From the NCBI GenBank assembly GCA_016235865.1, contig JACRIK010000003.1:1-64000 (forward strand): a stretch of DNA of 64,000 bases. The letters run 5' to 3'. The notes under the pieces were generated by a model that searched no databases, was not told the origin of the DNA, and saw nothing but the letters and a program-made list of their open reading frames with translations. This document shows positions 3,477 to 63,211 of the stretch, piece by piece; within the stretch, counting starts at the first letter, position 1, and each line of letters starts with the position of its first letter. A program made the position numbers and the translations under genes. The stretch is from Planctomycetota bacterium. Lineage in GTDB: Bacteria > Planctomycetota > MHYJ01 > JACQXL01.

Positions 3477-3882
3477 GAAAATAAAACAGCCCCAAATCAA
3501 ATCCCCCTCCCCCTTCACCAAGGGGGGGGTATGGTAGTGGAAGGTTTAATCCAGAACGGTGTCGCTTATTATGGTCAACACCGCACCTGCAGTGATTAGA
3601 TAGTCACCATGTAAATATTAGATGGCAAGCCTGTAAATATTGGATGGTAACGATGTAAAAATCAGGTGGTAACGATATAAATGTTAGGTGGTGACGATAC
3701 AAGGATTGGATAGTAACGATGTAAAGATTGGAATGTATGCACTCTGGGGCCAAGAACAAAAAAGCTGGGAAGAAGGGCTATTTCGGTAAAACCGCGTCTT
3801 GTAACGCAGAAAAATTAAGGGTTACCGGGCGCGGTGTGTGTCACCTGAGCAGAATTTGGAGATTGACAGAAAGGAAGGTTGT
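3477..3882. other. Gene-free stretch containing array B
   Basis: About 400 bases without a credible gene. It begins with a C- and G-rich palindrome-like segment near 3497-3530 (CCCCCTCCCCCTTC against AAGGGGGGGG), holds tandem array B at 3599-3730, and ends with the ribosome-binding site of the lipoprotein gene at 3883. No convincing promoter was identified. Confidence 0.6.
3599..3730. repeat. Tandem array B, six 22-bp units
   Basis: Six head-to-tail units of exactly 22 bp start at 3599, 3621, 3643, 3665, 3687 and 3709. The core is GATGGTAACGATGTAAA followed by a variable five-base end. Units are diverged but the phase never slips. The array lies between two genes of the same direction, 3' of the truncated delta-60 gene. 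Confidence 0.88.
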
Positions 3883-32477: not shown

Positions 32478-32760
32478 GGCGCTACGGAGGTACGTCACCG
32501 GCGCTACGGAGGTGCATTCCAGGCCCTGCATAGGTGTATTCCAGGCCTTATATAGGTATATTCCAGGTGCTACATAGGTGCATTCCAGGCACTGCATAGG
32601 TGTATTCCATACGTTATAGAGGTATATTCCAAACGTTATAGAGGTGAGTTCCAGGCGCTGTGGAGGTAAGCTCCAGGCGTTATAGAGGTAAGCTCCAGGC
32701 GCTACGGAGGTAACCTCTTGGCGCTACGGAGGTAATCTTCTGGCGCTATGGAGTAGTGGC
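32478..32760. repeat. Tandem array C, 13 units of 22 bp
   Basis: Units start at 32478 and recur every 22 bases without slippage to 32741, then a partial unit. The core is GGCGCTACGGAGGTAAGCTC with variants such as GGCCTTATATAGGTATATTC. The last three bases are usually CCA. Within many units AGGT is followed by CTCC, giving short internal GGAG/CTCC pairing. Confidence 0.9.
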
Positions 32761-32880: not shown

Positions 32881-33111
32881 AGCAAGCTTGTTCAACTCCT
32901 AAGCAAGCCTGCTCAGCCGTCCGGCAAGCCTGCTCAGTCATTCTGCAAACCTGTAAAATCATTCAGCAAACCTGAAAAATCATTCTGCAAACCTGCAAAA
33001 TCATTCTGCAAACCTGCAAAATCATTCTGTAAACCTGCAAAATCATTCTGCAAACCTGTAAAATCATTCTGCAAACCTGCTCAGTCATCCAGCAAACCTG
33101 CCCAGCCCATT
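32881..33111. repeat. Tandem array D, 11 units of 21 bp
   Basis: Eleven head-to-tail units of 21 bases. The central copies are nearly identical, with core TGCAAACCTGCAAAATCATT; outer copies are diverged (AGCAAGCCTGCTCAG). No internal dyad is evident. The gradient of identity, highest in the middle, indicates recent expansion from the centre. Confidence 0.9.
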
Positions 33112-33209: not shown

Positions 33210-33334
33210 GTCCCCATCTCAGTTGGAGACGTCCCTATCTCGCTTGGAGAGGTCTCTAACCCAGTTGGATACGTCTCTGAACCGTGGGAGAGGTCTCCAT
33301 TCCGGCTGGAGAGGTCCCCATTCCGGTCGGGGAT
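33210..33334. repeat. Tandem array E, six units of 20-21 bp with palindromic arms
   Basis: Units begin at 33210, 33231, 33252, 33273, 33293 and 33314; one has 20 bases. In each unit the ends tend to pair: TCTCCA with TGGAGA in the fifth, TCCCC with GGGGA in the sixth, so both arms have changed together. Confidence 0.85.
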
Positions 33335-33541
33335 GTCCTGGAACGGCATGACACTTTAGGTTGCTTATAACCACGTTAGAAGCGAATATAGTGGCGCGAT
33401 AAAATAATAAGTGTGTCTAATCACCCAATAGTGGACGCTTCTAATCGGGGCTAACGGGGTGAAGGATTATTAGATGTGGCCTACCCAGAGTTTACCCTGA
33501 GAAACAAAGGGTAGGAGAGCGTCCCCCGAATTCCACTGAAT

Positions 33542-34804
33542 TTAGTTGGAACCTTTAATTATAACTTGGGTAGGAATAACTATTACACTTTGCAAACCCA
33601 ACTGACCGTCAGAGTTATTACCCCAAACCCAAAGTGTGTTATCGGTCTTAAGAGCTAGTGTATGTAAACCACCACAAGAAATATGTTTCCAGTTAGTTGC
33701 ATTACCTACCTGAACAGGTGAGATATGATTCACTATATTATTCAGTCCTAATTGGCCATAATCATTTTTCCCCCACGCCCAAAGTGTACCATCAGTCTTA
33801 ATAGCAAGGGTATAATCATCTCCACAGGCAACCATCTTCCAATTGTTTGCTTTACCTATCTGGACTGGTGAGATGTGGACCACTGTATCACCCAATCCTA
33901 ATTGGCCATAATCATTTTTCCCCCACGCCCAGAGCGTACCATCGGCCCGAATGGCTAAAATATGGCCGTTCCTGCTATCAACCGTCTTCCAATCGCTTTC
34001 TGTTCCTATTTTGGTTGGTGTAGTTCTTGAAATCAGATCTCCCAATCCCAACTGACCGTTATTATTATTTCCCCAAGCCCAGAGCGTACCATCGGTTTTA
34101 ATAGCAAAGGTATGCCAATCAGAACACCTGATTTTTTCCCATGTGGTCTCGGCGCTAACCTGAACCGGCGAGAATTGTCTAATTGCATTACCTATTCCCA
34201 ATTCACCATTACTATTATCGCCCCAAGCCCAGATTGTGCCATCGGATTTGATGGCGACTGTATGGCCCAATCCACAGGAAACGGTTTTCCAGTAGTCATT
34301 ATCAGCACCTACCTTAATTGGTGAGTTAACGTATGGCACTTTACGTTCAGAATTAGACACTGGGATAAATTTATATAAGGATTCGTTTTTAGTGATATCA
34401 CCCAATCCTAATTGGCCATAGTAATTCTCTCCCCAAGCCCAGAGTAAACCAGCGCTATCAATCGCCATAGTGTAATTCTGTCCGCAGGCAACTACTTGCC
34501 AATCACCGCCGGCTATATTCAATTTAGTTAGTGCACCAACGGGTAAGAAATCGTCTTTCCTGACACCTAATTTACCGCAATAATCATCGCCCCAGGCCCA
34601 GAGTCCGGTTCCGTATTTATCCTCGGCTATGGCTATACTGTGCGATATGCCAGCACCCACCTGCAACCAAGTCATACTCGTTTTAATACTGCCGTTGGTA
34701 TCAGAATTTTCAAACCACGTCTGGACAATAAGCAGGCCAATGACGGATGATAAAACAACCCCTGATAACAACCCAATAACCAACCATTTAATATTTCTAT
34801 TCAT
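33542..34804 (-). CDS. RCC1-repeat (seven-bladed propeller) membrane-anchored protein
   Basis: A 420-residue protein with an N-terminal hydrophobic anchor (about residues 8-32: WLVIGLLSGVVLSSVIGLLI) and seven RCC1 repeats of about 50 residues, each with a TLWAWGxNxxGQLGLG signature and a following HTLAIKTDG segment. Seven repeats make a full propeller. RCC1 proteins bind other macromolecules; bacterial ones are mostly exported and of unknown function. Two adjacent repeats are almost identical even in DNA (about 33750-33930), showing recent duplication. The ATG at 34804 is preferred over an in-frame GTG at 34822 that would overlap the upstream gene. It lies three bases from the end of that gene, so both are probably one operon. 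Confidence 0.88.
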   Translation of the reverse strand: MNRNIKWLVIGLLSGVVLSSVIGLLIVQTWFENSDTNGSIKTSMTWLQVGAGISHSIAIAEDKYGTGLWAWGDDYCGKLGVRKDDFLPVGALTKLNIAGGDWQVVACGQNYTMAIDSAGLLWAWGENYYGQLGLGDITKNESLYKFIPVSNSERKVPYVNSPIKVGADNDYWKTVSCGLGHTVAIKSDGTIWAWGDNSNGELGIGNAIRQFSPVQVSAETTWEKIRCSDWHTFAIKTDGTLWAWGNNNNGQLGLGDLISRTTPTKIGTESDWKTVDSRNGHILAIRADGTLWAWGKNDYGQLGLGDTVVHISPVQIGKANNWKMVACGDDYTLAIKTDGTLWAWGKNDYGQLGLNNIVNHISPVQVGNATNWKHISCGGLHTLALKTDNTLWVWGNNSDGQLGLQSVIVIPTQVIIKGSN

Positions 34805-45649: not shown

Positions 45650-45684
45650 ACTCGCTGTAACATCCTAACGGATTAACAGCGAGT
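45650..45684. repeat. Dispersed CTGTTA hairpin element, copy 2
   Basis: ACTCGCTGTAAC and TTAACAGCGAGT, arms of about 10 pairs around ATCCTAACGG. It sits at the 3' border of the cobalamin aptamer, between it and the terminator. Confidence 0.7.
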
Positions 45685-45687
45685 AAG

Positions 45688-45890
45688 ACGGCAGGTCTTC
45701 TGGCTCACGGCTCATCCTACTCATCTCGCCTTCCCATTCCTAAGAACAGTGGCATCGTGAGATTTTCGTCCCCGTATACAGCGGCGGGACCGCACCGATT
45801 TTATGGCATTCGTTATCACCACATTCGGATTCCCTATATCCCGGACATAATCCCAGTGGGATTATGTATCGGGTCGCCTATCTTATGAAC
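45688..45890 (-). promoter_or_regulatory. Cobalamin riboswitch of the cob-btu operon
   Basis: A full-length aptamer on the minus strand. Seen in order: AGGGAATCCG, GGTGCGGTCCCGCCGCTGTA, GGGGACGAAAATCTCACG, GCCACTG, GGGAAGGCGAGATGAGTAGG and the B12 box GCCAGAAGACCTGCC (complement of 45690-45704). It binds adenosylcobalamin in known cases. The next genes in its direction are cobC-cobU-cobT-cobS-btuFCD. Confidence 0.93.
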
Positions 45891-45934
45891 TAAACTAACT
45901 ATTATCTGACCAAAGTCAATAAATAAATACTATT

Positions 45935-60228: not shown

Positions 60229-61122
60229 ATGCGCATATTTACACGCGGAGATTTGGACGGTTTTGCCTGTTCGGTCCTGGTCACCACCATGGAAAGCGTC
60301 AAGGAGATAATGTTTGTCCATCCCAAGGACGCCCAGGACGGCCGGTTCGAGGCGACCAGCGAGGATATCCTGGTCAACCTGCCCTATGTCAAGGGCTGCG
60401 GCCTGTGGTTCGACCATCACATCTCCGAAGAAAAGAAACTCAAGGATATGAAGGGCTTTAAAGGCGCCTATGCCGTGGCCCCCAGCGCGGCCCGGGTGGT
60501 TTACAACTATTATCGCTCGCCTAAACTCGACGCCTACAAAGAAATGCTCCACGACATCGACCGGTTTGACAGCGGACAGTTGACTACCGAAGACGTGGTT
60601 AACCCCAAGGGCTGGATTCTGCTGGGTTATACCCTGGACCCGCGCTCAGGCCTGGGCCCGGAATTCCAGAAATACTTCCGCTGGCTGGTGGAATATGTCA
60701 AGGAGGTGCCGCTCGATAAGGTGCTGGAGCACCGCGAGGTCAAGAAACGGATTGACAAACTCCGGGCTGAACAGGCCGAGTTCACCCAGATATTAAAGGA
60801 ACACGCCAAGCAGGACGGCAATGTGGTCCTGACCGACCTGCGCCATCTGAACAATGTCCCGACCGGCAACCGGTTCCTGGTCTACACCATGTTCCCTGAG
60901 GCCAATGCCGAGGTGCGGATATTCTGGGGCAAGGCCAAGCAGAACGTGGTCATTGCCTGCGGGCACAGCATCTTCAACCGGACCTGTAAGGCCAATGTCG
61001 GCCGGATGCTGGCCGAATACGGGGGCGGCGGCCATACCGGCGCCGGCACCTGCCAGGTGCCTGTGGAAAAGTCCGAGCAGGTCATAAAGGAAATCATACA
61101 AAGATTAAAAGAAAATAAATAA
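60229..61122 (+). CDS. DHH-family phosphoesterase (exopolyphosphatase-like)
   Basis: A 297-residue protein of the DHH superfamily. Motif I is TRGDLDGFACSVL (residues 5-17), motif II/III WFDHHISEE (DHH at 63-65), and the C-terminal DHHA1 glycine motif is YGGGGHTGAGTCQV (265-275). Such enzymes hydrolyse polyphosphate, nanoRNA, pAp or c-di-AMP with Mn2+; the subfamily here has a short DHH part, closest to exopolyphosphatase-like proteins. Substrate unproven. AAGGAGG lies seven bases before the ATG. Followed by the gene-free zone. Confidence 0.88.
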   Translation: MRIFTRGDLDGFACSVLVTTMESVKEIMFVHPKDAQDGRFEATSEDILVNLPYVKGCGLWFDHHISEEKKLKDMKGFKGAYAVAPSAARVVYNYYRSPKLDAYKEMLHDIDRFDSGQLTTEDVVNPKGWILLGYTLDPRSGLGPEFQKYFRWLVEYVKEVPLDKVLEHREVKKRIDKLRAEQAEFTQILKEHAKQDGNVVLTDLRHLNNVPTGNRFLVYTMFPEANAEVRIFWGKAKQNVVIACGHSIFNRTCKANVGRMLAEYGGGGHTGAGTCQVPVEKSEQVIKEIIQRLKENK

Positions 61123-61185: not shown

Positions 61186-61471
61186 CATCCGTGCAGATTG
61201 ACACCCTTAATCCACAGGACTAACATTCGTATCCCTGCGGACTGACACCCGTATCCCTGTGGACTAACACCCTTAGCCCTGCGGAGTCAGATTCGTATCC
61301 CTGTGGACTAACACCCTTAACCCTGCGGAGTCAGATTCGTATCCCTGTGGATTAACACCCTTAGTCCTGCGGAGTCAGGTTCGTATCCCTGTGGATTAAC
61401 ACCCGTATCCCTGCGGACTAATACCCGTATGCCTGTGAATTAATACCCTTATGCCTGTGGAATAAGGGTCA
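61186..61471. repeat. Tandem array F, 13 units of 22 bp in alternating types
   Basis: Units run every 22 bases from 61186 to 61471 without slippage. Two types alternate in the middle: type 1 TATCCCTGTGGACTAACACC and type 2 TAGCCCTGCGGAGTCAGATT, so a 44-bp higher-order repeat is present (61252-61427). Outer units are closer to type 1. Confidence 0.9.
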
Positions 61472-61618: not shown

Positions 61619-61882
61619 GGTATAACCTTAAGGTTACGAGTTATAATCTTAAGATTACAGGTTATAATCTTGAGATTACGAGTTATAATCTTGAGATTAT
61701 GGGTTATAATCTTAAGATTACAGGTTATAATCTTGAGATTACGAGTTATAATCTTGAGATTATGGGTTATAATCTTGAGATTACAAGTTATAATCTTGAG
61801 ATTACAGGTTATAATCTTGCGGAGCCGCAGCGGAGTCCCGATGACCATCGGGGAGGTTACGGCTTATAACCTTGAGGTTATG
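61619..61882. repeat. Tandem array G, 21-bp units with a palindromic core
   Basis: Ten units of 21 bases from 61619, core GTTATAATCTTGAGATTACG. TAATCTTAAGATTA or TAATCTTGAGATTA is a 14-bp dyad in most units; the first unit has TAACCTTAAGGTTA. Units 2-4 (61640-61702) and 5-7 (61703-61765) are identical, a recent 63-bp duplication. An unrelated 30-40 base GC-rich piece interrupts unit 10 (about 61820-61858), after which TAACCTTGAGGTTA resumes. Confidence 0.92.
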
Positions 61883-62092
61883 GGTTATATTCTTATGGCT
61901 ACGACCCACCGTCATACGACGGGGTAAACTCCGGGAGTCCCTCACGGGATTCGTTGCTACTTTCCCGTTAGGGACGCCTACCTACCAGCCCCGTTACGCC
62001 CGTCTGACCGTGCCATTCGGGCAGGTCGGGACGGAGTAGGCAGGGACTACCTTGCCGATGGAGGGCCACAAGATGGTATTGCCAGCCCAATG

Positions 62093-63211
62093 TTATTCTG
62101 ACAGATAAAGAATATTGCGGAATGATGCCTTGCATTTTTCAGCGCTTAAGGCCGGCAATCCTTTGAATCGGGTCTGCTTTCCTTCGGGGATGTTAGCCTC
62201 AAATTGTAATTCGCCGTTTAAATAACATGAAACCTTTTCTCCTTTTATCATAAACCTCAAGTTATTCCAATCACCGGCTTTGAATGTATCGGGCAACGCC
62301 CGGTCGGCCAGCCGGCTTAGGTTTGGAACCGCTTCACCCCTGGATGAATACCTAAACAGACAGATGCTGTTTTCCCGGATAGCATACCAATAAAACGTAT
62401 GGTCGTAATCAATCACAGCAAAGGCAATACCGAAAAACTGGTCGCCCGGCGTTTCTTCCAGCCGGACATCCAGGGAAATCACATAATTCCCCTCCAGCAC
62501 TCGGGTGTGCTGAAGCTGGATCATTCCCGGCTCCAAATTACCGCCGGTGATGGCGCCATTTTCTACTTTCCACCAGGCCTTCTTGGAGATATCCCATCCG
62601 TCCAGGTTATCGCCGTTAAATAAGGGATCCATAAGGTTTTTTTCCTCGTTCATAAGGTTCATCCGGAACAGGTTTAACTGTTCGGTGATTTCTTTTCGGT
62701 CTGGTTCCATAGCGGATAGGCGTTCCATAAGACCAAGCAGGTATTCATTGGCGCTCTGCGGGTATTTGCCGGCCAGGTCCAGGAATTTGGTCATGTATTT
62801 AGCGTTCATCTCGTCGAATTCGGAACTGATTTTGCCGTATTCATTCAGATAAGTTATGATTTTAGCTGAAAGTTTGGCTTGGGCATCGCTGCGTTTTTCC
62901 ATTTTTTCCAGCAGTTCGCTGGCCTTGGTAAAATCCTTGGCGGCCTCGGCCATTTCTTTCATCTGCCAGAAGAATACACCCCGCTCAAAATAAGCGTCCG
63001 GGAAGTCAGGCGCCTCGTCGATGGCTTTCTGGAATAATCCCAGCGCGGCCGGATAGTTCTTTTTCTGGACCTGTTCTTTGGCTTTTTTGAAATAAATCTG
63101 GGCCGATTCCTCGTCCGGGAAGACGTTCAGAATAAAAAATAACCCGATGGCCAGCGGGCTGAGCCAGCGCAAAAACATTCTATCTGGTATCTGTCTCATA
63201 ATCCAGTTCAC
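62093..63211 (-). CDS. TPR and DUF1080 (LamG-like) secreted protein
   Basis: A 372-residue protein. A signal anchor (about residues 12-32: FLRWLSPLAIGLFFILNVF) is followed by TPR-type helices (about 34-105: AQIYFKKAKEQVQKKNYPAALGLFQKAIDEAPDFPDAYFERG), a helical part, and a C-terminal DUF1080 domain (about 195-370; DPLFNGDNLDGWDISKKAWWKVENGAITGG). DUF1080 is a concanavalin-like fold found in planctomycete glycan-degrading proteins. The start could be the GTG at 63211, overlapping the upstream stop (GTGA), or the ATG at 63199; no clear ribosome-binding site settles it. Confidence 0.83.
   Translation of the reverse strand: MNWIMRQIPDRMFLRWLSPLAIGLFFILNVFPDEESAQIYFKKAKEQVQKKNYPAALGLFQKAIDEAPDFPDAYFERGVFFWQMKEMAEAAKDFTKASELLEKMEKRSDAQAKLSAKIITYLNEYGKISSEFDEMNAKYMTKFLDLAGKYPQSANEYLLGLMERLSAMEPDRKEITEQLNLFRMNLMNEEKNLMDPLFNGDNLDGWDISKKAWWKVENGAITGGNLEPGMIQLQHTRVLEGNYVISLDVRLEETPGDQFFGIAFAVIDYDHTFYWYAIRENSICLFRYSSRGEAVPNLSRLADRALPDTFKAGDWNNLRFMIKGEKVSCYLNGELQFEANIPEGKQTRFKGLPALSAEKCKASFRNILYLSE

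Follow-up and report, generated by a model that had tools for sequence, protein, structure and literature searches.

A 21-bp tandem array between convergent planctomycete genes as a probable member of a genome-wide class of constant-period satellites

Array G lies in a gap between two convergent genes, which end at positions 61122 (+) and 62093 (-) of the window, by which we mean the entire 64,000-nucleotide stretch of DNA analyzed here. The window is the start of a 596-kb contig (C3) in a 2.67-Mb assembly of 38 contigs. Given its sequence, the 297-aa product of the upstream gene might be a putative DHH-type phosphoesterase, an assignment made by inspection only, as the protein has no Pfam match. 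Judged by this gene, the nearest relatives of the organism are Planctomycetota. In L006, the closest relative that carries this upstream gene (73% identity), the 700 bases downstream of it contain no array. A 22-bp satellite occupies the same gap as array G (Table 1), and its family also includes G000:C3:441081-441318, where G000 denotes the present genome.

Because 21 is a multiple of three, open reading frames run through array G on both strands. A coding repeat was considered and rejected, and the Pfam matches that fall on the repeats, YabP (29.4 bits, cutoff 27) and BDV_P24 (below cutoff), were taken as artifacts. Promoter-like consensus matches number 5 versus 2.2 expected, and terminator-like matches number 1 versus 1.6. 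An Rfam scan of the window matched only a cobalamin riboswitch at 45673-45893 (minus strand, 86.3 bits), with nothing at array G.

Table 1. Features at and around array G (window coordinates).
Feature	Position	Strand	Basis
Flanking gene, 297-aa ORF, convergent towards arrays	60229..61122	+	about 40-73% identity in other Planctomycetota
Neighboring 22-bp satellite (GGACTAACACCCGTATCCCTGY), array G's intergenic gap	61217..61465	.	TRF; family match
Array G main tract, 21-bp units	61621..61819	.	TRF period 21, 9.5 copies, score 293; unit listing
Two identical 63-bp (3-unit) blocks of array G	61644-61706 and 61707-61769	.	exact identity
Unit 11 of array G, split: TAATCTTG|34-bp insert|AGGTTA	61812..61859	.	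sequence; part of alignment A2
34-bp dispersed palindromic element CGGAGCCGCAGCGGAGTCCCGATGACCATCGGGG at dyad center of unit 11	61820..61853	+	44 related copies; genome-wide BLAST matches
Unit 12 of array G, TAACCTTGAGGTTA, variable pair C-G	61867..61880	.	unit listing
Flanking gene, TPR + 3-keto-disaccharide hydrolase (PF06439), 372 aa, convergent towards arrays	62093..63211	-	Pfam 54.6 bits

The array (61621-61880; TRF score 293-335) comprises 10 intact 21-bp units plus an eleventh that is split at its dyad center. Nine intact units start at 61623, 61644 and so on to 61791, followed by the split unit at 61812 and an intact one at 61867, and a degenerate unit comes after unit 12 at 61888. Each unit consists of a 5-bp stem, a 4-nt loop (TTAA or TTGA), the second 5-bp stem arm and a 7-nt linker (YRRGTTA). 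The first unit has the dyad TAACCTTAAGGTTA and the last TAACCTTGAGGTTA; of the others, two carry TAATCTTAAGATTA and six TAATCTTGAGATTA. These motifs and the location of the array were given correctly in the original prediction, as the sequence and unit listing confirm, and so was the exact identity of the two 63-bp blocks, which by all appearances of the sequence is a recent duplication. The 14-mer has only one further occurrence elsewhere in the 2.67-Mb genome.

The “palindromic core” proposed for these units requires some adjustment. What the units have in common is a stem of 5-6 bp enclosing a loop of 4 or 2 nt, but TAATCTTGAGATTA is an imperfect palindrome in which the central T and G are unpaired, and the TTGA center breaks exact twofold symmetry in 7 of the 10 intact units. 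Thus, array G retains a stem-loop but not full twofold symmetry. Permuting the columns yields a weaker dyad in about 99% of cases (p about 0.01).

Among the five stem pairs of array G, only pair 4/11 varies, while the center (TTAA/TTGA) and the YRR of the linker vary freely. Both terminal units have C-G at the variable pair and eight units have T-A, whereas the split unit, which had previously been missed, has T.G, a single-arm state. The earlier claim that C/G replaces T/A jointly in both arms, with symmetry kept, holds for this pair, but it concerns one base pair and effectively one event. Specifically, the T/A state forms a single interior block with C/G at both edges and the T.G unit exactly at the junction. 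This is the pattern that growth of an array from inside gives, such that about one double change is documented, not many.

One possibility is that such arrays are neutral satellites made by slippage and unequal crossing-over, with template switching at quasi-palindromes copying one arm to the other, so that paired changes would arise without selection. Periods of two turns would then stem from the way slippage works. Correction of quasi-palindromes is well established as a source of mutations; it could lead to the same pattern, and the original prediction did not consider it. The block difference in array G, effectively one event, agrees with neutrality. So does the excess of single-arm deviations (111 cells) over double ones (28 cells) in the 21-bp arrays of the same genome. 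The original prediction had named such a frequency of single-arm changes as evidence against it; the outcome is mixed, as double changes prevail in the array-G family but not in that broader count.

Array G alone is a thin basis for the proposal that selection acts on a dyad over a fixed sequence, but related arrays support it. In the same genome, C14:28438 combines the linker of array G with the stem TAACG/CGTTA and a GCAA loop, and an array of G005, a genome from another family of the same order, carries the stems TGGCA/TGCCA, TATTC/GAATA, and TGGTC/GGTTA. Aligning these two arrays with array G (alignment A2; 22 distinct units, split unit included) gives pairing in 93.6% of stem cells. Changes affect both sides in 23 cells and one side in 4, the latter all giving G.U, and 7 cells are unpaired. 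The covariation of 0.622 compares with 0.260 after shuffling and with no more than 0.193 after sliding. Three 21-bp alignments besides A2 agree, so that a covarying helix, as looked for in structured RNAs, was found in four alignments.

From C35:55332 onward, for example, 21-bp units carry the stems CCGTA/TACGG, CTGTA/TACAG, and CCGAT/ATCGG. In C12:12208-12669, a GAYGRYT loop is constant around the stems CGTTG/CAACG and CCCCTG/CAGGGG, and the same loop recurs at C21:141795 of this genome and in G003 arrays with the stems CTCCT/AGGAG and CTGGT/ACCAG. Pooled over two genera, the GAYGRYT arrays contain 56 both-side cells, with covariation of 0.625 versus 0.158 shuffled. Judged from these sequences, it is supported that the dyad rather than a fixed sequence is constrained in array G.

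The four alignments (A1-A4) were assembled from arrays noticed for their dyads and serve as illustrations with controls, not as a blind sample; the blind test is provided by class-wide counts. With stems chosen from the consensus alone, the 21-bp arrays of this and related genomes contain 31 double Watson–Crick changes, whereas 1000 shuffles average 17.6 (sd 3.3) and never exceed 27, although these shuffle counts overstate significance and are not true probabilities because the units of an array are related by descent. Such changes make up 14% of deviating cells in 21-bp stems versus 4.3% in controls, which were complementary column pairs outside the helix. The 22-bp arrays, treated identically, have no excess of double changes (27 versus 33.0 in shuffles) and no difference between stem and control column pairs. 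By column permutation, a dyad is present at p<0.05 in 18 of 98 arrays, 6 of which, array G included, are at or below 0.01. Since most arrays, including nearly all with a 22-bp period, have no dyad beyond chance, folding is not the whole story.

These results bear directly on the dimeric DNA-binding protein that the original prediction had put forward. Near-perfect dyads at a fixed spacing of two turns would suit binding sites of a dimer that reads a symmetric sequence. However, the arms of 21-bp arrays differ within one genome (TAATC, TAACG, CGTTG, CCCCTG, GGTCTGA) while pairing is kept, and the asymmetric TTGA center is what most units of array G carry. Because arms change jointly while their sequence differs among arrays of one genome, one base-reading dimer would not be able to recognize all such units, and we regard this explanation as very improbable for the 21-bp class. 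Sequence-specific binding is more plausible for the 22-bp class, in which the word ATACCC/GGGTAT is common to 9 of 38 otherwise unrelated families (0.6 expected); this shared word suggests a sequence-read component there. The other proposal of the original prediction, a foldable strand, suits the covarying arms better than a dimer does. Jointly changing arms fit selection for a fold, whether of DNA (a cruciform or single-strand hairpin) or of RNA.

Array G is one of many loci of this kind. We scanned 1.86 Mb of the draft genome in stretches, about 70% of the total, and called genes with a simple hexamer model. Autocorrelation reveals 29 loci at lag 21 and 61 at lag 22, whereas lags 17, 19, 23, 26, 28, and 31 give 0 loci each in the same scan; apart from 21, 22, and their multiples (42/44 and 63/66), no lag rises well above background. 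With a period of 20-23 and a minimum length of 80 bp, TRF identifies 98 regions. Ninety noncoding 21/22-bp arrays in the 1.86 Mb fall into 61 consensus families. The counted arrays lie between called genes, and 22 is not a multiple of three. Arrays of the same periods are present in G001, G002, G003, and G005. A length of 21 or 22 bp corresponds to two helical turns.

Enigmatic tandem repeats of constant size (20-23 nt) have been described by Subirana and Messeguer in individual species of many bacterial groups, without sequence conservation (PMC8161180, citing J Bacteriol 2020 e00229-20). A polymerizing protein or transcribed RNAs have been suggested for them, with a proposed role in the nucleoid or as RNA, and their function is unexplained (PMC8161180). 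From what these sources describe, the present arrays are alike in being tandem, noncoding, and fixed in size near 21-22, with many unrelated families per genome and short shared words. The fixed length, the several sequence families in one genome, and the noncoding location that define that class were all found here. In the literature searched, which did not extend to the primary description of 2020, there is no report of hairpins, palindromes, or compensatory changes in 20-23-nt satellites, nor of even genome-wide spacing; RNAfold models of 52-nt repeats are the sole mention of folding in the part of this literature on such repeats that was searched. Array G is a member of this described class, and within those bounds the covarying 21-bp hairpins and the even spacing appear to be new.

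The arrays are placed selectively with respect to genes. Array-bearing gaps are convergent in 28 cases, co-directional in 43, and divergent in 1, compared to 49/316/106 for array-free gaps. Thus, array loci are enriched in convergent gaps (28/72 versus 49/471; p = 1.2e-8) and avoid divergent ones (1/72 versus 106/471; p = 1.6e-6). The 72 loci are also evenly spaced, with a mean gap of 24.3 kb and a coefficient of variation of 0.48 in this one genome. Among 3000 random placements on real intergenic sites, the mean coefficient was 0.865 and the minimum 0.600, such that none was as even. Five definitions of available sites lead to the same result. The evenness stands out less when an 8-kb exclusion zone is built into the null, as it is then equaled in 5 of 1500 placements.

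Neutral expansion would not be expected to produce even spacing or near absence from divergent gaps. Likewise, two exact periods over 61 families are unexpected if the arrays are neutral, and so are loops or linkers that stay the same from one genus to another as their stems covary. We therefore consider a purely neutral origin quite unlikely.

Another possibility is that the 21-bp arrays act as tandem RNA hairpins. As part of the 3′ or 5′ untranslated regions of transcripts of flanking genes, they might stabilize messages, stop convergent readthrough, or bind a protein via a conserved loop. The GAYGRYT loop stays constant across two genera while stems covary, divergent gaps are avoided, and array G folds as RNA far better than shuffles (z = -12.7 and -13.9 for the two strands). 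In addition, wherever a single-arm state in the array-G family preserves pairing, one strand has G.U (4 G.U versus 1 A.C). However, G.U and A.C number 49 to 43 over all 21-bp arrays, and array G folds well on both strands, so that no strand is singled out. Nor does an RNA role explain the even spacing or the near-equal period of the non-covarying 22-bp arrays, and array G has no Rfam match. On balance we find a role in RNA possible but doubtful.

Some arrays seem tied to one gene. A homologous array family is located directly upstream of the same gene in G000 (contig C21) and G003, and 4 G003 arrays and several arrays of this genome directly precede genes of one family of about 220 aa. Such arrays across genera indicate that some are kept beside the same gene, and this placement of some 21-bp arrays is in keeping with a local or RNA role, which counts against a chromosome-level one. 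In three genera, members of this gene family are preceded by a 21-bp hairpin array at a distance within about 30-160 bp, with G000 loci at C3:292600-293254, C21:206482-207145, C21:142013-142715, C14:69914-70637, and C30:42560-43223, and further members L195, L185, L247, L249, and L250. Three members tested gave no Pfam match.

Given that both classes share a period of two helical turns and that the loci are evenly spaced, we favor a role in chromosome structure over one in RNA. We consider it likely that array G belongs to a satellite class found throughout the genome, whose 21-bp hairpin units are kept by selection. The observations behind this proposal are the fixed period, the many unrelated sequences, the gene-end placement, the even spacing, the covarying stems, and the occurrence in related genera. 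According to the proposed scheme, noncoding satellites of constant period (21 or 22 bp), mostly at gene 3′ ends and about every 24 kb, would form one set. Within it, each unit of the 21-bp class would be selected to fold back as a short hairpin or cruciform; the stems would then diverge through compensated changes, whereas the period, linker, or loop would not. We infer that the arrays may serve as structural sites on the chromosome. A repeating protein scaffold, or cruciforms driven by supercoiling, might use the units locked in helical phase to mark or anchor boundaries of loops or topology, and the folded strand would then be DNA rather than RNA.

Taken as a whole, this combination of gene-end satellites, selected hairpin units, and chromosome-structural sites is our best explanation, and it has nearly an even chance of being correct. 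A function at the level of the chromosome is, by itself, a tentative proposal that we would give somewhat less than even weight. We speculate further that the arrays could be a chromosome-wide ruler, wherein satellites of fixed period and free sequence, placed about every 24 kb at gene ends, organize loops or topology, and the 21-bp class is recognized by its folded shape, as a hairpin or cruciform, and not by its sequence. This last version is rather unlikely. The covarying stems and the even spacing provide two testable handles, one on selection for a fold and the other on a placement rule at chromosome scale. If relatives have the same spacing, this would suggest that some bacteria use repeats of irrelevant sequence to mark loops or topological domains, in which case bacterial chromosomes would be organized by a principle that is new.

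Two known repeat systems resemble array G in part. REP and BIME palindromes, tagged by GTAG and CGTC and with proposed roles in supercoiling and at mRNA ends (PMC3733652), are also short, hairpin-forming palindromic units that often lie 3′ of genes and can cluster. However, they are single or paired dispersed units, whereas array G has a strict head-to-tail step of 21 bp, and identity with them was rejected, as no GTAG or CGTC tag is present in its units. A related check for RAYT transposases covered two Y1_Tnp genes, whose examined flanks have neither 21-bp units nor the 34-bp element. CRISPR arrays likewise are tandem palindromic repeats with a fixed step, but this identity was also rejected: array G lacks unique spacers, as its repeat spans the full 21-bp step, linker included, and the 7-nt linkers are near-identical.

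The split unit owes its form to a 34-bp insert between a left arm (TAATC-TTG, 61812-61819) and a right arm (AGGTTA, 61854-61859). Palindromic elements of this type (34-36 bp, GCGGAGYCGCARCGGAGTCCCGATTATTTCGGGG) are scattered through the genome, with 44 copies in 1.86 Mb, about half of them within predicted genes. The insert is like the Rickettsia palindromic elements in being a short palindromic element in and between genes, but differs from them in sequence and host. General targeting to palindrome centers was rejected, as flank complementarity over the 44 copies is 5.27 versus 5.07 when re-paired.

Several other observations were made on repeats in this genome. Many array families (on contigs C3, C21, C12, and C30 of G000) have exactly two distant loci, in an order partly collinear or mirrored between contigs. 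For some of these families, paralogous genes adjoin both members. The GC skew changes sign near C3:460-480 kb and C1:185 kb. The order is suggestive of mirror-image pairs on two chromosome arms, but we do not claim such pairing because duplication of an array together with its neighboring gene explains some pairs better. About 150 kb of contig C1 (G000:C1:1000-151000) has no clear array besides strongly diverged 22-bp repeats near 130 kb, which keep a GGGNATANTACC-like frame.

The window itself contains other 22-bp satellites at 2-331, 3595-3729, and 32503-32753, and 21-bp satellites at 32924-33101 and 33210-33338, all unrelated in sequence. The family of the satellite at 3595-3729 also has members at C3:561233, C1:151360, and C30:179326. 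Tandem repeats of 150 bp, probably coding, are found at 33697-34095 of the window and at G000:C3:370761-372605.
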